Shown one piece after another: positions 17,041-64,000 of a DNA stretch of 64,000 nucleotides. The stretch spans positions 18,283,019 through 18,347,018 of the forward strand of contig CM049306.1 in NCBI GenBank assembly GCA_026874595.1. Direction: 5' to 3'. Made by a program: the position numbers and the translations under genes. Positions within the stretch are counted from its first letter, which is position 1. Each line of letters starts with the position of its first letter. This DNA comes from Sipunculus nudus. Its lineage: Eukaryota > Annelida > Sipuncula > Golfingiida > Sipunculidae. The notes beneath the pieces are model-generated. The model did not search any database. It saw only the letters and a list, made by a program, of their open reading frames with translations, and had not been told where the DNA came from.

Positions 17041-17044
17041 TTAC

Positions 17045-17979
17045 CTGAATGTGCGATGCAGCAAGCCATATATCATTGCGTTACTTCCGGTAGCCGCACA
17101 GTAAAAGAATGTAAACAACATGTACCAACCTCTGTGCAAATGACCACTTAAATCCAGAGCTTTCAAAAATGCAAATGGCGCATACCCAAGGAGATTTACA
17201 AGACTGCACACAGCAGTAGTTCTGGCAAGGGACACCTGTCTTTTCTTGAACTGTTTTCTAGCATGGGTCAAAGAGGCATCGCCAGTCTGACGTTTTATGA
17301 CGTTTCTGCTGACCTTAGAATTCATGCGGAAGATGCTGCCGTAACAAAAGCTCATGACACCACAGGGGATCACAGTATAGAAGCAATAAATGTACATTTG
17401 AATATGACCTAACCCTGGGTAAAAGAGACAGTCCAATCCGACATCTATGTCCTCCTGTCCTGTCACTTCATTCACAAAGGTAGGTATCAGAAGAGATATG
17501 GCGATGAACCAACAAACAAAGACGCTCACCACGTTAGCAGTTCTTGTTATCAGAATTCTCGAGTCCTGGACTATTATCATGTATTTCTGCATTGAAATAC
17601 ACATCTGATGTGCCACAGAGCTCGCAAAACAGGTACAACTTGAGTACATGTAGATTTTACATCCTAAAATCCCGAACTCCCATTTGCTTGTCAAATGTGT
17701 CCAAAACAAAATGGGAGAAGCCACGGAAAGAAATATTATATCAGGAACCACTAAAAAACCAACCACAAAATTACTGCGGTTGAATAGTTTCTTGTCCGTT
17801 AGCAGAGCGACAATGATAAGACTGCTGCCGACAAGGCATTGTAGAAACGTGATCGGTATCACAATCAAAGACGAAAGTCTCGTACCAAAATCTAACTTAT
17901 TATTGTCAGTAACTGAAGAAAAATTCATCTTGATCTCAAAAACGGGTTCGCCTGACAAACTGTTGAAAATAGGACTCAT
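17045..17979 (-). CDS. Class A (rhodopsin-type) GPCR, orphan, melatonin-receptor-like helix 7; 3' end spliced
   Basis: A seven-transmembrane receptor in the plasma membrane, expected to signal through heterotrimeric G proteins; ligand unknown. Visible: N-terminal sequon NFS (19-21); TM1 about 36-60; TM2 about 71-93 with D80; the WxFG motif of loop 1 (W100) and C107, which pairs in this family with C184 of loop 2; TM3 with MQKY (130-133) in place of DRY; TM4 about 150-170; TM5 about 194-217 with a proline; basic loop 3 (RKQFKKRQ); TM6 about 253-275 (LGYAP in place of CWxP); TM7 about 285-307 ending NAMIY, where most class A receptors have NPxxY. NAxxY followed by GLL..FR is typical of melatonin-type receptors, so that group is a fair guess. 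The apparent stop after FR is intronic: the exon ends TTCAG|GTAAGC (donor at 17,043-17,044), leaving a two-base codon remainder for a short tail exon. Start is the first ATG; M18 has the better -3 A context. Confidence 0.85.
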
Positions 17980-31215: not shown

Positions 31216-33320
31216 TCTGCTAAAAAGTGGGGGAGGGGGATTTATACCCTCCGATCCCCTCCTGCATTGACGCCCCTGCGGGAAACCAAGGACCCGATCC
31301 TCGCCTGCCTGACTGAATGTGGCTCAGTCACTCCCATGTCTAGCTGTCATGCATTCTTACACCATGTCGCTTTACTCCTGACCTGACGCGGACCGCAAGA
31401 CTAAAATAACTAAATAAAGAACCTTCACGTCCAGATCTTGAGGACGCATCACGAGCGGTTTACTCTAGCTCTTATTGTACTTCACCAATTTCTTTAATTC
31501 AAATATTTTATATCTTATCTTCTTCTCTGCAAAATTAATTGTAAAAAAAATATTTCATTCTTCGAGACATGGACCCCAATTCAAGTAGATAAACTTGAAT
31601 CCCCTGTATTTTTAGCAAAATTAAACTTTGTTTATAGTGTTAAACAGACAAGTAGCTGCCTTTTCAAGTACGTGGAAATACATTATTTATCTTCTTATCG
31701 GAAAAAAGTAACTGATAGGAAATATGAAAAATGGGAAACTTCTTTGCTGCTTGGAAATTCTTTGGCCTATTTTGCCATTTGGGGTTAATAAAGTGTGATT
31801 GTTGGTGAGGTGAGGGATGTTCCTCCGATACCTACACCTTTCCATGAATTGACCCCGCCCAAGATTACTAAAAATGTAAAGATAAGTCTGCTACCGTTCT
31901 TGTGATATTTTTAACGTACTTTCGGTCATGGAGAGAAGTCTTTTTTTAAAGGTGGAGGGAAATGTATTTTATTCATAGATATACATGAGGTTATGTACCA
32001 TGTCCTCCCCCACACGAACTATCAGTAGGTAGTCAGAGACCACATAAATACAGGAAATATGTGAATCCGGGCCCAATTTGTACGATGGTTCTACAGCTCA
32101 TGGTTGCATCAAAGTTCTGTTCTTAACCCAGAATGAGTAAGCGCCATATCGGCTGGGATAAACATATAGTTTTGTCTGACAATGGAAATGAATAAAAATA
32201 CTCTGGTGATCCAGATTTCCTACATATAAGTGGATGTCCCTTTGAATGTCAGCCTAATGTGGGCGTGGATTTGTGCGCATACGTATATGTAGATGGCGTC
32301 GATTCGTTTACTCATCCTCCGACAAAAAAAATAAATTTTCATTCATTAGTACCCTTCATATAAAAAAGATATGAGTGAGAAATATATATCTAACGAACCC
32401 AGGTTCTTATTCAAGGTTGCTATTCATTTCATGTGTTACCGAGGTTACATTGGATCTCGGTAGATGAGCACTGTAATATATAACGCAATAGGTATTAAAT
32501 TACCAATATTAAACAAAGTGTACATATGACAAAATTAAAATATAACCAGATCGTGTGTGTGATGAGAATCTACGAGCAGCTGGCGGAGTGGCAGTAAAAC
32601 CATAACTAGGACTAGGATGAACCTCCGTAACATATATTGCATAATTTCTAACGACCCTAAACTTGTGCAAACTAGAAAGTACTCGCAGAGCGCATACCTT
32701 CAGCCACACCTGTATCTGAATCCAGATCTGCCTAAAAATTTAACCAACCTATATCCCGACAATTCTAGTTTGACTTACTGAAATTCATTGAAAACATTAG
32801 TTGTTATTTGGTACGTTTTGGGATCCTGAGTTGTGAAAAAATAACAAAGATCTCAAGCGTCTTTCGTGTTGTTCACTCTCTGACTGATGATGCGTTGATG
32901 ATGAACTTAGATAACGAGTGGGTGCGATGAATGTGACGTTACCGGGGGAGGGGATGCTCAGAACAACAGATGCTTAATGCTGTAAATGCCACAATTATTT
33001 TCCAAGATTGCACCTAGCAAAATAAAAAAAATATGTATGCATCTTGGGAGGGGAAAACCATTTATGTTCTGGTGTAATGTTCGAGTGAAGTCGCAGAAAC
33101 CAAGCAGACAATTTCTACAATACGATACATTATTATTGCTTGCCGGAAATCAAAGATTTCTGCAAGCATGTTGGTCAGTTGCGTATGTTTGTTTGTTTGT
33201 CACGATTAGTGTTTGTGTTTGTCCCCACTCTACTGTCCACAGTTTTATAGCAATCGATCTGAAACTTACAGAGTTGATTGAAACCCAAAAGTCTGGGTAA
33301 CCTTTTTTTTTTTGGTCAAT
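31216..33320. other. Intergenic, nothing firmly recognised
   Basis: GACGCCCCTG near 31,270 looks like one end of the G-rich MITE family without a partner. No supported exon in this interval. Confidence 0.35.
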
Positions 33321-33322
33321 AT

Positions 33323-33335
33323 AGGTCAAAGGTCA
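33323..33335 (+). promoter_or_regulatory. Perfect DR1 nuclear-receptor-type motif
   Basis: AGGTCA-A-AGGTCA, a direct repeat of the half-site with one-base spacing, as bound by RXR, HNF4 and related receptors. It lies just upstream of the tandem-repeat block, and may be part of a dispersed repeat instead of a functional element. Confidence 0.3.
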
Positions 33336-33801
33336 TGGTCGAAAAACGTCAAGATTTGATTTTCTTCATAACTTCGTCAATTTTAGTCCTATATCGTCAC
33401 ATACTTAGGCTCAATTTCTTCCTCTGGGTCTTCTCAATTACCTGGTCTAGTCAATCTGTCAGTATGTCTGTCTGTTTGTCAGTTGTCCTCAATTTCGTCT
33501 GTTTGCTGGGTCTTGCATCATACAATTAGCAATCTATAGGCCAAATCTACATAAACTATAGCTCATTTTGTTCTTCTTAACCTTCTCCGTTAGCTGATTT
33601 AGTCATCTGTTATCTCAGATGTCTCACCTTGTCAGTATGTCTGTCTGTTTGTCAGTTGTCCCCAATATCAGCTGCCTGCTTGTTCTTGCTATTACGATAA
33701 GCATTCTAAAAGTCACAGTGTTGGAGGAATCCTTTTAAAACTGATACATGGTTTGTCTAACACTAATAGCTCGAAAGGAATTTCTTATGTTCGTAGAGTA
33801 A

Positions 33802-33818
33802 CCGCTAGGGGGCGCTGC
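33802..33818 (+). promoter_or_regulatory. CTCF-like motif 1 (forward)
   Basis: CCGCTAGGGGGCGCTGC matches the 15-base CTCF core consensus CCASYAGRKGGCRSY at every position but the third. CTCF and its motif are conserved across bilaterians; binding here is inference. Confidence 0.45.
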
Positions 33819-34229
33819 TGGCGAATAAAACATATTATTTTTTGGCTATATCCCCAAAACTATTAACTTAACTACGCTCCCGAGGCAGCGGAAATCTTGC
33901 GCTTCTAAAGAAGCTACTTACGATATAGGTAGTAGGCCTATAGGCAAAGCGCTGTGTAAAGAGCGTATAACTTAATCTACACAAATTATAGCTGATTTTG
34001 TTTCTCTTATCCTTCTCCATAAGCTTATTTAGTAATCTCTTATCCCAGATGTGTAACTTTGTAAGTATGTCTATTTGTCAGTAGTTCTCAATAACGGTTG
34101 CCTCCTGGTTCTTGCTCTTACAATTAGCATTCTAGAAGACACAGTTTTGCAGGAATTCTTTGAAAATGATACATCTTATTTCTTACAATCATACCTCTAA
34201 AGGATTTTTTTTTAAATTTCGGAAAGTAG

Positions 34230-34246
34230 CCGCTAGGGGGCGCTGC
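34230..34246 (+). promoter_or_regulatory. CTCF-like motif 2 (forward)
   Basis: Identical 17-base word to motif 1, 428 bases downstream, at the end of the next repeat unit. Confidence 0.45.
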
Positions 34247-34518
34247 ACTCGAAACACTTCAACATCTTTTTTTACCATAGCTTCAAAACTGAAATTCTTA
34301 CCAACGTACACTGTTGCTCATTTTGTTCTTCTTAATTTTTTCCATAAGCTTATTTAGTTATCTGATTTCTCAGATGTGTCACTTTATGCCTTTTTTTACA
34401 GACTTTCTGTCTGTCTGTTTGTCAGTAGTCCTCATTTTTGGCGGCTTGCTGGTTCATGCATCTTAAAATTTGCTTTCTACAGGCCGCAGTTTTGCAGAAA
34501 TCCTTTTGAAACTGGTTA

Positions 34519-34522
<4 letters not shown>

Positions 34523-34579
<57 letters not shown>
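34523..34579. repeat. (TA)n microsatellite inside the last tandem unit
   Basis: About 28 TA units inserted between CTTA and TCGAAAG, where the other units have a short AT-rich segment (for example CTAATAGCTCGAAAG). Confidence 0.9.
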
Positions 34580-34582
<3 letters not shown>

Positions 34583-34609
34583 AAGTGGTTTTTGATTTTC
34601 GGAAAACAG

Positions 34610-34626
34610 ACGCTAGGGGGCGCTGC
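34610..34626 (+). promoter_or_regulatory. CTCF-like motif 3 (forward)
   Basis: ACGCTAGGGGGCGCTGC, 380 bases after motif 2. The 15 bases after ACGCTAGGGGGCGCTGC are almost identical to those following motif 2 (ACTCGAAACACTT). Confidence 0.45.
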
Positions 34627-34725
34627 ACTCGAAACACTTAAACATATCACTCAATGGCCTTATCATGGGAAAGTTACGAAATAACGTGTAGGTGTGCTTG
34701 CATGAAGCCTTAATATGTGTATTAC

Positions 34726-35081
34726 CCCATTCACACGGCAAATTCAAATTGTTCTGAATGCGAATTGAGCGTTCACATAGCAATCCAGTGCTTTCTCCAA
34801 CCGTTTTATCCAAATCAGTTTCAAACCCAATCGAATTATCCGCTCCGCTAATTTGTCGTGTGAACGCTCAATTCGCATTCAAAACGGTTCAGAAGCAGCA
34901 ACTGAATCACAGCACATGCGCGAATGCTTGTGTCAGCATGTTGTCAGATTGATCCACATGTGAAATGTACACCTCATGCATTGGTGCCAGATGTCTGTGT
35001 GAACGCACAATACGGTTTGAAACCGATTTGACCAATTTGCTTTGTGCAAAACGTTTTAAAACCAGTTTGTGTGTGAAAGGG
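34726..35081. mobile_element. ~356-bp MITE-like element with subterminal inverted repeats
   Basis: Ends CCCATTCACAC and GTGTGAAAGGG are imperfect terminal inverted repeats. Inside, a 22-base perfect inverted repeat occurs at 34,756-34,777 and 34,859-34,880 (core GCGAATTGAGCGTTCACA), and related words (GTGTGAACGCACAAT, GGTTTGAAACCG) recur toward the right. No open frame for a transposase. A target-site duplication is not clear, so the superfamily is left open. Confidence 0.6.
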
Positions 35082-35389
35082 TTTCTATGATTATTCATAA
35101 CTTTTACAAAGTTTGTGAAAGAAAGAACGAATCTCTTTTTGTCAAATGTATTCCGATAATCTTATCCTAATATCGAAGTCAATCTAATAGAAGATGATTG
35201 GGAAACTGAAGAACTTGTAGGGACATAATCAGGAGCAATATTATTCCTATTCTTTCACACTATTATTTCAGTTTTGCATAAAACAAAAGTTTCCCATCCT
35301 AGCACACAGTTTCATTTTCTTCGCATACGACTGTTTAACACCTTGTTCCAGCCCTTCGTGTTGGTAAACACAGTCTGTTTACCATAACA

Positions 35390-35620
35390 AGGCCGCGTGA
35401 CCGGAGGTCTGATTAAGAGGGGTAACACGCGGTGTTTCAGCGAGCGGGAACAAGTATTACATTTTTTTGGGCCAAGTGAGTCAGGGCATCTCCTGATTGG
35501 CACGTGTTGTGGCTTCGCGCAGCATACGGCCCGACGCACTGTGTTTATGTTGACAATTGCGATCGCGCCCGGTTCACTGTTTTTAACACTCGGTCACGGG
35601 AGTAAGCAAACGGTTTCAAG
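35390..35620. promoter_or_regulatory. CpG-rich segment with AP-1, CCAAT and E-box motifs
   Basis: About 20 CpG in some 230 bases against a CpG-poor background (ATACGGCCCGACGCAC, GCGATCGCGCCCGG). It contains TGAGTCA (35,477-35,483, AP-1 consensus), ATTGG (35,496-35,500, inverted CCAAT) directly joined to CACGTG (35,501-35,506, E-box). Looks like a promoter or enhancer, but no coding exon was recognised beside it. It lies between forward and reverse CTCF-like motifs. Confidence 0.4.
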
Positions 35621-36203
35621 GCAATATTTTTGCTGGTACAGTTTAAAGGAAAACAGCTATTTTTCGTGTTAACTCAAAATGCTTTATAGGTTATTAGGCC
35701 CCTTTAACATTGTAGCTTTTAAATAATAGATTACCAATATTTTTCATTTTGCTTTGCTTATTTGACATGAAAGTAGTAAATCATTTTACAGCTACTACTA
35801 GTTAGGGTAATCACTAAGCTGACTGATGTATGTCTCTGAAATTTATAATTGAAACACCGATGTACTTTTGTTATGGCTATATGTTCAGTTTAAATAAATA
35901 AAGATTGACTTGTTAGTATGTGCTTCTTCAAGTTAAAAAGGTGTATAGACATTTAAGTTGTGCAGTATATATGTTAAGGCGAATGAACTATGCGCGAGGC
36001 GCAGCACTGCTGTCAGAAGCGATAGACGAATAAAACTGGTGATTAATTTTGCATTTCTCTATACAGTGTCAAATATTTATGAATGACTATTCAAGGTGTT
36101 TGAAATAAATTCCTCACCGCCACTTAAATTATTTTTGACAGACTGGGCCAAAAAATGTCAGAATAATATGGTATACTCCATAGTTAAGACGGTCATCTCT
36201 GAA

Positions 36204-36218
36204 AGCGCCCCCTGGTAG
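36204..36218 (-). promoter_or_regulatory. CTCF-like motif 4 (reverse orientation)
   Basis: The plus strand reads AGCGCCCCCTGGTAG; its complement, CTACCAGGGGGCGCT, matches the CTCF core at 14 of 15 positions. Convergent with the three forward motifs 1.6-2.4 kb to the left. Confidence 0.45.
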
Positions 36219-36376: not shown

Positions 36377-37500
36377 CACTCAACCATTGTCACCGCCCGA
36401 AATGCGGACCTGTTCCAGCTCGAGGAGGGATGATGCATTTGCATTGAGACCTGTGTATATGGTACTTTCTCATTGATAATATAAGTAATGATTTCTTTGA
36501 AGGCACTTTGTGGTTAATCACCAAACAACTGATCCGTAAAAACAGAAGCGTTAATTCTTAATATTAATTATATTTAGGTGACCCTTTTTATTGTTTATAC
36601 ATGTTTATTTTGTATAAACTCATCAAGGGTTGACGGTATGTCTAGTATTTCCCTTTGATCTGTTGCAAATCAAAGTCATGGATTGGTATAAAAGTGCCTG
36701 TTAAAGTCTAATATGAGGACTTCATTTGGTCAGAATACGGGTCAGATTTGAGAGAACCAGGGATACACTCGAGTTCCCACTCCATGCTCTTGTTATCTTG
36801 CTCCAGTATTTTTTATATCATTTATTTAGTTATATAGAACTGTTCAAAAGAGACCCTAACTTCAATGAGGCTTCTCTAAATGTTTGACAGACATAAATAC
36901 TTTCGCGTAACATGCCCGCATGTTCCATGTGGTGCCACCTGTTGTCCATTACTGTAACGAGTGTTAATTACCTATGATGATAAATGTGATGCTCTTATAG
37001 TGCACCACATTAAACTAATAAACACAGTTTAGGAGTAGATAAAAATCCTTTATCAATATACAAATGTATATTTTATCAAATTTGAAATATTTCTTAAAAA
37101 TAAAGATGGGAAAGACGTTAGTTGGTCGTTCAAGGCCGTGGGCACCATTTCAGTGTACATATTTACACTTTTGACTCATCATTTTTCAGGTCTTTTAAAT
37201 CCTCAGTAGGTTGAGACCACCGAGCACGTTTCCGCCATCTTCCTGAGATCCAGGTATCTTTTTTTCGTTCCGCAGAGACCTAGCTTTATCGGGTCCCCCG
37301 ACCTTCAAGGTCACAATCAGAGGAAAGGTCGGGACCCTAGATTAATTAGGCTATATTGATCGATATAATATAAGTACATGTATAATTAACAGAAACCCAA
37401 CAGAAGTAAAGTAGTATTTGAGTTAAACACTTTCCACTGTTGTTGACTTCTAGCGATAGGAGGATTAAACTGCACATACACGGATAAACAAATTCTGTGT
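36372..37500. other. Intergenic, nothing recognised
   Basis: Contains an inverted pair around CCGACCTTCAAGGTCA / AAAGGTCGGGACC near 37,290-37,335. No exon supported. Confidence 0.4.
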
Positions 37501-54302: not shown

Positions 54303-54492
54303 GCTAGACGGTAAAGTTTATAAGTTACTCTACTCCAGCCATTATAGGTAACACATACGACAGGTACTGCCACCTGGCGGCAAACAAATAACTAATTTAT
54401 CTTAGCGTCGTGCAATGCTAGTTTGTTTGAGAGGAAGCACAGAACGTCCGGACTAATGTATTTCTATTGAGACAGAGAATTACTTTGTACTT

Positions 54493-54695: not shown

Positions 54696-56333
54696 TACAC
54701 ATGTAAGTGGAGTTGGTGTTCTCATGACTCCTGTTTTGATATATTTTGAATGATTTAAAATGAAATTCACGAGTCTTTATTTTAACAGCTTTCTCTTTGC
54801 CTCGGAGCTCAAACTATCTGCTTAGAAATCTTGAAAAATAGTCGAACTCACCATAAGCAACATTTCGTTCAGAGTGATTTTTAATAAAGATAATAATTTA
54901 AGTATAACTGTTACTCGGACCGGGTTTTCTTACTCGAAGATTGACTATATTCCGTTTCATCCCCTCATGTCGACCTGTTTTTTGCTATGAACATTTTTAT
55001 TAGTTACATTTAAAGGGAAACAATTATAGTGGAGAGTAGAGGTTAAAAGGACCTTTTTTCAACAGGGTAAATAAATACCTACCTTCTACCTTATTTAAGA
55101 AACAAAATTATTAGAAAATATGAGAAATCAGTCTACATTTTACAACATATCAGACCCACTTATGGCGGTCAAGGTCATTGGTCACATGCAAAAACAGCCT
55201 CAACTGACAGGTGCTGATTGGATGATCTCATGTAAACACTCTAAAAAATATAACCAGCTAAAACAAAGATGGCTACTTATGAAGGGACACATCATATCTG
55301 CCAGATCATGGTGAAGTGACCTAAATGTTGTGAAACATAAACGTGGGATTTATTATAAAATTCTTAATTGCAATATTAGGTTGTCACCTCCATATGTAGT
55401 TTTCTAGGAAATAATTGAAAAATATAAACTTTTTAGAAAATTATCTACAAAAGCAGGTGGACAGCAAGTAATGAAACAGACTATAGTACTTGCATCTAAT
55501 GAACTCAAACTGACCTGTACATCATACTTTAACATTGTTGAAAAATTAAAAATATGGTGAAAATATCTGTCTGATCAACATTATCTTTAAATTTACAATA
55601 TGTCTATAAAAGAGTGCATTCTCCAGTGCATTACAAAATATACATTGGCTGCAGGTTGAGATGAGGCAGGATAAATCTTCTTCCATTCCTACAGATACAT
55701 TTCAGTTTTTTAGTTTTTTTTTGTTCCATTCCTTTAGGGCATTCTGATTGTACCTATGACGGGATGATTGAAGTGACGGAATAGAATACATAGGACGTCA
55801 TGATTAAATAAACTGAACAAAATGTTCAATCACTTTGCCTTCGCCAAACTAGCAAAAGAGACATATGTTAACTCAGAGAGCCATCTGGCGGAGATCGTCG
55901 AATTTACTCTATGAATATCTTCTTGCGCCATCAGCTTAGACAGCTGTCTTACCATAACACCACAAACTTGACCATTCACATAATATATCATAAAATGTAA
56001 TAAAATATTGCTTTTTTGTCTATATGTGTGATTGCTCAGTTATATAAATACTTCGTTCATTTTTGTTGCGTGAGTAAACCCAGTTCAGGAACTAATCAAA
56101 TGATCAAACATGGGTTGGGAGTTTTATAAATTCTGCTATAACATCCGCTAGGTGATCTATTTGGTTCTACGAAAATATCATATGTAGCATTTGCTATCCT
56201 TTAAGCGAATAAGTGTATAATGGCCACCCTGATCACCTAGATAACTTTATCAGAGGCGTGGGAAGCAGATCAAAAGTGGAGGGGCCAAATTGATATTTAT
56301 GATTTATAAAGATGATGGTGGATGTATATGTAC

Positions 56334-61276: not shown

Positions 61277-63528
61277 TATATGTATGTATATAAGGTTGCA
61301 CCTGGTCGTAATATGTTTCATATTTGTCAACTCTTAGTTGTGCATCATGGAGACAGGGGCATAGGGCAAACTTCCTCCCACTAGAATATCCGACCGACGG
61401 AATTTTTGCTAATGAAAATTGTAAGTTTGTAATGTGATGATTATTGTCAAATTAAAGTACTGATTTAACTTTTGCTTATATATCATTACATAGGGCTGTG
61501 AATTATTATTTATTTAAAAAATGGCATTATACGAAACTCCCACTTATAACACAGAACCACAAATACATAACTAAGGAGCATATATTCTTGTTGTTAAGTG
61601 GTTAGATTCATATCAGAAAATTTGTTGAAGCTATTATAAGGCCGGGTGGTGTATTGGTCTGACGATTAGAAGGGTCTTCAGGATAAGACGATTCAAAAGA
61701 TTACTGGGAGAAACAATGGGACAAATACGTCATGAATGATGAATCCGTCATCATTGAATCTGCATGATAGCATCCACATAGAATAGATGTATTTTAATGA
61801 GAACAAGACATAAAGTTTTCAAATAGTGGGCCGTAAAAAGAAGTCGATAACCATGGTAAGACTATTTTCACTGAAACAAAAGGCCTGTTTTTGAATAAAG
61901 GATGATCAAATATCTTAATCCTCCAAATCCTCAAATTCTTAAGAAAAACCCAAATCGTGCATGTCTTTCTAGCAGGGTAGGTTTGGTACTCGGCAATCGG
62001 ACTTCTTCCTTAAGAAGAATACCTCGCGCCAAGTATACGTAGCTTTATGCAAAATAAATATTAACCAGAAACTTCGATAGGGACCACACCGTTAAAAATA
62101 AAGAAGATTTATGACGTTTAAAATATTAGGCACAACAATATATTATTTTTCTCGTCGATACAAGAGACCCGAACGCTTATCGTCTGTCGTCGAAGGAAGG
62201 TGTCGCTGGTCTGTTGGAAAAGGTCTGTTGCCTGAATTTAATGTAATACATAAAAAAGGAATATCACATAATAATCGCTAATTCTACAAATGCATTATCT
62301 TTCTTCTTAATGGGTATACGTACGGTGAGTATATTGTTAAGAGAACGATATTTAAAACTTTCCTCGTTTTACATATCAGGTAGACCGGATGCGTTAATCA
62401 ATTTTTATATATATACCATGTCCACTTTTTAGAAATAATACCCGAGAATCACACCCATTAACTATTCCGATGCATGGTTAAACCCATATGGCAGATCTTT
62501 GCCTAAGGCACCAGTCTATATATGAACAACGCTCGCTGTTCAGGCGCGTGTATTCTACATAAATCGGTGACAGGATGGGAAAAGTTATCGGTATAGCCTT
62601 ATCCTGGGACTACATGTTTCAAGATATTCTGAATTTTTCTTTGACTCACCACTCAGTCAACGGCAAAAACCCCGATCCCTGTTTTCAACAGCACGTAAAA
62701 CAAGACAGGGACGTACCTGTGTAAAGAAGTTTCAGGTAGCAAACTTGTCAGACAGACTTTAAAATCCTTGCCATAAAAGGCACTTCTCAGTTTCAAGGCT
62801 TTATACCTAAAAGCTTATTGATTACTGCTGAGAGGTCTCTTTCTTAAAACGTGTCATTTCCCGACGAAAAGGTACATATGTCCTAACGAGAAAATGTAAC
62901 AAAAACCCATGATCCCGCACACAGCTCAAAGGACGTCATTGTTTGTTTTGAAAGTCACACGGTCTTTGATTTGTACACAGAGCTCATAGTCGGCAGGAAG
63001 ATAAGCCATGTTGTTGTGACATGAAGAGTTGATCCACTAAAGCCTTGTAAACGAGGATCATACAGGTACTGGATCATTGTAGCCCAACTCTGAATCCTTT
63101 TACTTGCTTCAACAAGTTTCCCGTTTTATAAACGAGGGATTATCATTAAACAGCTGTATCGACTGACAGCTTAAACTGGAAATATTTCAAAGTTTACCTT
63201 AATAAAATAAAACCAGAAAATTATATTTTATCATATAAAGACATTATCGACCAATCCGTGACGGCATACACATTACGCTTTGAAGCCAAGATTATAAATC
63301 GTACGCGTACCATGTCCAAAAGGCATCATATCAATGGAGAATAAACCCTTTTTTGGCTTTTGGTTTCAGAGAACCATGACTGGTGAGCGAGAGCACTTTG
63401 GAGTAACCAAGGTTTATTAAATTCTGTAATACTTGTGGGAATCACCATAAAACCGGCATTAGTCTATCGGTGGAACAGAGTAACAGTCAAGATTTAATTT
63501 GGCATTATTGAATCAAATTATAGCAAAT
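59770..63528. other. Intergenic or intronic; one TA array, MITE debris
   Basis: 60.2-60.4 kb is GC-richer (CCCCCACGGGCGCC, GGTCAC...GGTGACC stem), with no RNA family recognised. CCCCCCCCTCCCTTCCCACGCC near 61,170-61,190 is a reverse end of the G-rich MITE type. TA array at 61,238-61,273. A clear acceptor (TTTTTTGGCTTTTGGTTTCAG, about 63,350-63,370) sits 160 bases before the PAN-gene ATG and may start its 5' UTR exon. Confidence 0.4.
61238..61273. repeat. (TA)n microsatellite
   Basis: About 17 TA units. Confidence 0.9.
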
Positions 63529-63861
63529 ATGAAAACATGCTACATATTTTCTGGTTTGTTAATCCTTTTGCCTCAAATACTTGTGTGCTCAACTTCGACC
63601 ATACATGAGACAAAATGGCGCAGACCAAGTTTCACCACAATCAACAAGGCGTTTCGGAACTATACATTTGCGGTCTTTCGTACAAGGGGAATGTTCCAGT
63701 GTTCATCATTTTGTTCCAATGACGTTCGTTGTTACTCTTTCAACTACGGGCCTCGGGATGTGGAGAATAACTGTGAGCTGAATGATCGACTGTCCGATTC
63801 TTATGGTCAATGGCTGGTCAACGCACCTGGGTTCCGCTATTTTGAAATGAGGTCTATTCAG
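63529..63861 (+). CDS. First coding exon of a secreted or type I protein with signal peptide and PAN/apple domain
   Basis: 111 codons in phase 0 from ATG 63,529 to the donor ATTCAG|GTAACT (GT at 63,862); the frame's stop a few codons later is intronic. Residues 1-22 form a signal peptide (MKTCYIFSGLLILLPQILVC). The mature part fits a PAN/apple-type module: a sequon in RNYTF (N44), cysteines at 58, 62, 68 and 82, and the family hallmark C..FC..D..C.SFNYG followed by NCELN. PAN modules mediate protein or carbohydrate binding outside the cell; in molluscs they commonly head longer secreted or receptor proteins with lectin, fibrinogen or EGF modules (family knowledge, not visible here). The gene continues beyond the right edge of the window. 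The ATG is chosen because it starts the hydrophobic leader exactly. Confidence 0.8.
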
Positions 63862-64000
63862 GTAACTTGTAATGTTTAGTTCCCTTTCAAACTTCAGAGT
63901 GTAGAACAAATTTATTATTAAGGCTGTGTGTGTGTGAGGAGGGCAAATGAGAGTAAACTACTTAAGGGAGCTAGAATATCAGCAGAAGCTGACAAAAGCC

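Follow-up and report, generated by a model that had tools for sequence, protein, structure and literature searches.

Mammalian SINEs (rodent B2, for example) spread CTCF sites, and the CTCF occupancy of such sites has been measured. The element analysed in this work resembles them in that a transposon multiplies CTCF-type words through the genome, and differs from them in being of the rolling-circle type, in having several words per copy and in being known here from sequence alone.

The HINEs, which are non-autonomous Helentrons, often have satellite-like central repeats, according to two reports (PMC7492417, PMC4067079). One of them, Cg_HINE of Crassostrea gigas, is described (PMC7492417) with a 5' subterminal repeat and its inverted partner, a 3' subterminal repeat with a palindrome, a left part that resembles a microsatellite (GTCY-type), central repeats in tandem, genome-wide dispersal and a partner element still to be assigned. 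All of these find a counterpart here (a likeness of description), whereas the units of about 330 bp with a CTCF-like word set the present element apart, and the term "CTCF" is absent from the main text of that report. The DINE-1/HINE elements of Drosophila and mites (PMC4067079) are similar, also by description, in their terminal anatomy and their preference for T-rich insertion sites, and are different in that autonomous partners have been shown for them. Among the papers listed for CTCF with Helitrons, transposable elements or satellites, no title or abstract opening mentions CTCF words carried by Helitrons or Helentrons.

It is an open question in two reports (PMC13317027, PMC10658181) whether, beyond the vertebrates, CTCF anchors loops in an orientation-dependent way. 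A genome that combines a CTCF orthologue, CTCF-type words strongly enriched outside the present element and a transposon supplying thousands of further words is a natural place to examine CTCF looping. The window analysed here is the whole 64,000-nucleotide stretch C1:18283019-18347018 of the Sipunculus nudus genome (1.43 Gb in 153 contigs). In this window, exact motifs within a diverged repeat resembled selection, and the sobering result for the locus is that relatives collected blindly to the motif show ordinary decay. Our best reading is that a repeat unit with a CTCF-like word (TGGCCGCTAGGGGGCGCTG), belonging to a known kind of transposon, would be the source of thousands of CTCF-like sites that are now decaying; there is no sign of the words being kept by the host, nor of the locus being a loop anchor.

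CTCF-like words in the window

The sequence-only reading of this stretch had described three CTCF-like words in the same direction, and these are real and beyond chance. The core 15-mer CGCTAGGGGGCGCTG occurs exactly at 33803, 34231 and 34611, always on the + strand, and a search of the whole window with up to three mismatches returns these three matches alone (0.21 expected). With a degenerate CTCF consensus and at most one mismatch, six sites are found where 0.18 are expected, namely the trio and three sites on the - strand, two of which (54366 and 55877) had previously gone unnamed. Scoring was also done with a human CTCF matrix, with a maximum of 31 bits; against this matrix the trio reaches 20-25 bits and thus matches above chance, about 0.026 sites scoring at least 20 being expected per 64 kb of random sequence. 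The sites are the following:

33802..33817, + strand: CTCF-like word CCGCTAGGGGGCGCTG of unit 1 (consensus; matrix 23.2)
34230..34245, + strand: CTCF-like word CCGCTAGGGGGCGCTG of unit 2 (consensus; matrix 24.7)
34610..34625, + strand: CTCF-like word ACGCTAGGGGGCGCTG of unit 3 (consensus; matrix 20.2)
36204..36218, - strand: reverse site CTACCAGGGGGCGCT (one consensus mismatch; poor matrix score; single-copy surroundings)
36930, - strand: CTCF-like site outside the element (matrix 19.4)
54366..54380, - strand: isolated CTCF-like site CCGCCAGGTGGCAGT outside the HINE element (strong, matrix 22.6; consensus)
55877..55891, - strand: CTCF-like site outside the element (consensus, at most one mismatch)

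The reverse site at 36204, to which the convergent partnership had been assigned, stands above chance by consensus, but is close to chance by matrix: its score (at 36203/36204) is only 12.9, because a T replaces a near-invariant C, and about 1.7 sites scoring at least 12 are expected per window. The other sites on the - strand (54366, 55877 and 36930) have a matrix strength at least equal to that of 36204.

The words lie in a probable non-autonomous Helentron

The exact core CGCTAGGGGGCGCTG is present 4,916 times in the genome (2,666 + 2,250), and its letter-reversed control 0 times, which bears out, at the level of sequence, the earlier proposal that a repeat multiplies CTCF-like words. In 20 loci around listed core matches, the words are typically 327-331 bp apart, within common stretches of about 1.9-2.0 kb. 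The copies have their ends in common: on the left, a repeat of 14 nt together with its inverted partner, plus GTCT/GTTT tracts; on the right, the complementary 14-nt repeat, a hairpin and a CTAG ahead of T-rich DNA. An 18-mer of the 3' end has 2,509 genome matches with up to one mismatch, and one form of the left end has 76 with up to two mismatches (control 0 in both cases). The motif-bearing repeat was rightly described as having diverged flanks (449 of 655 flank positions identical to the nearest subfamily consensus), but it is not a local tandem repeat: it forms a transposon family that occurs throughout the genome and whose units measure about 330 bp. The parts of the copy in the window are:

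33138..33151, + strand: 5' subterminal repeat GCTTGCCGGAAATC, taken as the left end of the element from comparison with family left ends (perfect complement of the family 3' 14 nt)
33155..33167, + strand: inverted partner to the 5' subterminal repeat at a distance of 3 nt, with one gap in the pairing (from the sequence)
33187..33201, + strand: short GTTT tract (from the sequence), like the left part of published HINEs (PMC7492417)
33226..33453, + strand: diverged first unit without a CTCF-like word, containing AGGTCAAAGGTCA at 33323-33335 (unit profile 37 bits)
33637..33958, + strand: unit 1, with word (unit profile 201 bits)
34062..34387, + strand: unit 2, with word (unit profile 228 bits)
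34406..34754, + strand: unit 3, with word, split by a TA tract at 34523-34579, with no recognisable 3' end beyond (unit profile 184 bits)

Based on this anatomy, the locus very probably represents a non-autonomous rolling-circle transposon of the Helentron type (HINE), in an old copy that lacks a recognisable 3' end. The subterminal inverted repeats of HINEs (about 11-15 bp) are represented in family copies by the 14-nt GCTTGCCGGAAATC on the left and its complement on the right, of which the window copy retains the left one alone. The inverted partner near the 5' subterminal repeat is found in the window itself (33155-33167), and the short 3' palindrome is found in the family as CGACC-TAT-GGTCG (a 5-bp hairpin, z -2.6); the window scan gave neither palindrome nor 3'-end match for the local copy. 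HINEs insert into T-rich DNA and leave no target-site duplication; T runs are seen at several ends of family copies. Helitron-type Rep domains are present in the genome (143 matches among the 150 of 195 candidates that were scored), and six Rep loci of 3.4-3.6 kb, too short to reach the element ends, contained no partner with the same ends. Rep domains of this type were also seen within open reading frames as long as 2,426 aa (C13:66180677 and C11:50385293, for instance). The AGGTCAAAGGTCA of the word-less first unit, which is also found in family left parts, consists of tandem AGGTCA-type half-sites, which we take to resemble nuclear-receptor sites.

The element body is built of head-to-tail units of about 330 bp, most of them with one CTCF-like 19-mer in fixed orientation, and in the mechanism that we propose the spread of the element would have put thousands of words in the genome (the dispersal and the common ends are observed, and the mechanism is read from the anatomy). 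Inserted copies decay without visible protection of the word, the CpGs being lost fastest, and the three intact words of the window would be survivors within a very large family. Copies that are still intact may bind CTCF, since the animal has this protein.

Decay of the word and of its flanks

When compared to the nearest subfamily consensus, the window words are identical at 54 of 57 positions (18/19, 19/19 and 17/19 in units 1-3), against 449 of 655 in the flanks (144/217, 164/217 and 141/221). To judge this difference we used three samples of units that were collected without reference to the motif. Sample 1 (40 units chosen by an exact block outside the motif, chromosome C1 only) gave a motif identity to consensus of 0.867, against 0.837 elsewhere, which places the motif at rank 72 of 200 windows; half of the units (20/40) score at least 18, and the exact core is kept in 4/40. 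Judged by the CTCF matrix, the substitutions in this sample do less harm than random ones (mean score 18.7 vs 16.5, with 2 of 400 simulations as high, in the 35 of 40 units that are ungapped), and the 28 distinct words average 18.3 vs 16.3-16.5 simulated. In sample 2 (40 units chosen by a downstream block, again chromosome C1 only), 33 of 40 words score at least 18; the sample comes mostly from one young subfamily, 22 of its 40 units having one common 19-mer.

On a tree of the 73 unique units among the 80 of samples 1 and 2, the motif has 4.9 changes per column and the flanks 5.0, which puts the motif core at rank 32 among 83 windows. CpG columns change alike in motif and flank (11.0 vs 10.5 changes per column), and the CpGs of the word are therefore unprotected. 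The 15 non-CpG columns of the motif show 3.3 changes vs 4.4 in flank non-CpG columns (p 0.085), and those of the 16-bp core 2.8 vs 4.4 (p 0.024), a slowing which is a weak remnant signal.

The third sample is the window's own subfamily. Using the stretch that separates word 2 from word 3 (words excluded) as a genome query, and scoring 40 of 1,071 candidates, we took 20 relatives with 72-77% identity. At the two motif positions of these relatives, the exact core is present at 3 of 40 sites and a score of at least 18 at 7 of 40. Relative to their own majority consensus, the flanks diverge by 13.6%, motif 2 by 13.3% and motif 3 by 20.0%, which corresponds to ranks 210 and 318 of 390 windows, and the mean matrix score is 12.4, against 14.9 in simulations with random substitution (28 of 40 sites ungapped). 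Neither the slow non-CpG core nor the milder substitutions are seen in this subfamily. The proposal that selection holds the motif thus finds no support in the three motif-blind samples, in which the word decays approximately as its flanks, and the divergence inside and outside the motif, the comparison on which the sequence-only reading had rested its own refutation, comes out against it. Conservation above the flanks among copies, the mark of a functional site, is not found, with the non-CpG core columns as a weak exception. At about 14% divergence per copy, the probability of keeping 15 of 15 letters is about 0.10 per unit and about 0.001 for three units, and in a family of thousands three intact words would be unsurprising.

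Two other comparisons depend on how the units were collected. Among the consensus sequences of 16 unit groups, a set mostly fetched by the motif itself, the motif differs by 0.24 and the flanks by 0.35 (rank 20 of 222). A conservation count over 129 units was set aside as biased, its loci having been fetched by the motif; even among these units the block GAATCCTTTTGAAACT (0.936) exceeded the motif (0.931). The exact block AATCCTTTTGAAACT occurs 3,623 times in the genome (control 8), and the exact counts of this block and of the motif (4,916) cannot be used as rates, because the consensus variants differ between unit types.

Convergent geometry and the CpG-rich segment

The loop-anchor geometry proposed for the locus finds no support. 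The three words have the same direction because the units are arranged head-to-tail; the supposed partner at 36204 is weak and its surroundings are single-copy (one genome match, itself); and the segment in between is a repeat:

35340..35650, no strand: CpG-rich segment, a dispersed repeat by its copies and not part of the HINE (CpG o/e 1.10)

Among the 40 scored of 4,414 candidates, this segment has 39 other copies at 88-91% identity. A unique promoter at this place is ruled out by its dispersal, and the segment, noted earlier for its AP-1, CCAAT and E-box motifs, is a copy of another repeat. The reverse sites at 36930 and 54366 outscore 36204, which gives a convergent arrangement on paper. 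Nevertheless, the geometry cannot by itself carry a loop claim, because the orientation of the element is a coin toss and because echinoderm data show no motif-orientation pattern at TAD boundaries (PMC13317027).

CTCF of the host and CTCF-type words elsewhere

The presence of a CTCF orthologue in the host was confirmed. A search with CTCF fingers gave as best match a single long open reading frame, located on C11 (56% over 200 aa, top of 397 matches). An inspection of its translation by eye counts 11 C2H2 zinc fingers. Among solved structures it is closest to human CTCF (E 1.3e-113), and its SVYDF aligns with the human SVYDF, the YDF-type N-terminal motif through which the orthologue would contact cohesin. 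The finger region (C11:67037824-67038417) lies in one intron-less open frame.

Another CTCF-type form, CCRCCAGRTGGCRST, occurs 1,117 times in the genome (control 5), HINE-like arrays included. The 100 matches listed all fall on C1; 33 of them are located below 63.3 Mb, the others being crowded at 63-66 Mb, partly within HINE-like arrays. Of 16 single CCRCCAGRTGGCRST sites, 15 have no match to the unit profile, and these 15 have at most 49 bp in common around the site; one of them, 54366 in the window, additionally matches other places over 33-35 bp. Such isolated sites may be candidate host CTCF sites.

The crowded part of C1 (63-66 Mb, frequently at 65-66 Mb), together with C1:45.03 Mb, contains a second HINE-like family, with units of about 203-213 bp and CCGCCAGATGGCGCTG at the profile-homologous place; its homology to the first family is confined to the surroundings of the word. 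The repeat-dense stretch of C1 that is rich in this family is perhaps pericentromeric. The position of CCGCCAGATGGCGCTG at the homologous place is suggestive only, given that the family came from a CTCF-like search. Beside it there is a third unit type with TAGCCACCAGGGGGCGTGG (score 22.5), which was not sought by its motif.

Weighing the explanations

The possibility that the repeat multiplies sites which the host keeps by selection as loop anchors, here facing a convergent partner, draws on the orthologue with its 11 fingers and SVYDF, on a trio that is intact inside a diverged copy, and on the reverse CTCF-like sites at 36204, 54366, 55877 and 36930. We find it hardly credible: in the relatives of the element the word decays as the flanks do (3/40 exact, 7/40 at 18 or more), its CpGs are unprotected, the matrix gives the partner at 36204 a low score and the intervening segment is a repeat. 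A function for the element itself, in which HINE source copies would need a CTCF-bound word for their chromatin state, replication or expression, so that the word would be retained in active source lineages and lost after insertion, appears rather unlikely to us. The slow non-CpG core columns, the mild substitutions of sample 1, the 33 of 40 words of sample 2 scoring at least 18, the lower motif divergence between unit types (0.24 vs 0.35) and the fact that a distant HINE-like family has CCGCCAGATGGCGCTG at the homologous place and the third unit type has TAGCCACCAGGGGGCGTGG are all consistent with such a function. Other unit blocks, however, are equally or more conserved, the old relatives lack a matrix-shaped pattern (12.4 vs 14.9 simulated), the first unit of the element has no word, and the between-type consensus set and the CCGCCAGATGGCGCTG family were both found through the motif.

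That the CTCF-like word arose in the unit by chance, CTCF playing no part in the life of the element, is in our view somewhat probable. About 0.4 sites scoring at least 20 are expected per Mb of repeat consensus, and one family among many could hold one; the neutral decay in the 73-unit tree and in the 20 relatives agrees with this, whereas the slow non-CpG core, the milder substitutions and the CTCF-like words of the distant homologous family speak against it. The reading that we prefer, a HINE whose words decay after insertion, is itself met by some opposing observations: the window words are kept at 54/57 against 449/655 in the flanks; the non-CpG core is slow, the substitutions of sample 1 are milder, and the motif differs less than its flanks between types (0.24 vs 0.35); a distant family, which itself came from a CTCF-like search, carries such a word at the homologous position; and the six short loci searched yielded no autonomous partner sharing the element's ends. 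A more far-reaching idea, which we hold to be improbable, is that CTCF would bind young intact copies in the germline or embryo, and that a Helentron lineage of at least two diverged branches, both with a CTCF-compatible word, would seed arrays of same-direction CTCF sites, some of which would now be boundaries.

Additional observations

At C1:43541600-43542300, an array of a 55-bp repeat (10.6 copies) has a CTCF-like word in each unit, all in one direction and in varied states of decay; the HINE unit profile has no match in this array. Open frames of the window at 17041-17979 (- strand) and 63499-63879 (+ strand) encode, respectively, a receptor domain of the rhodopsin type and a PAN domain.
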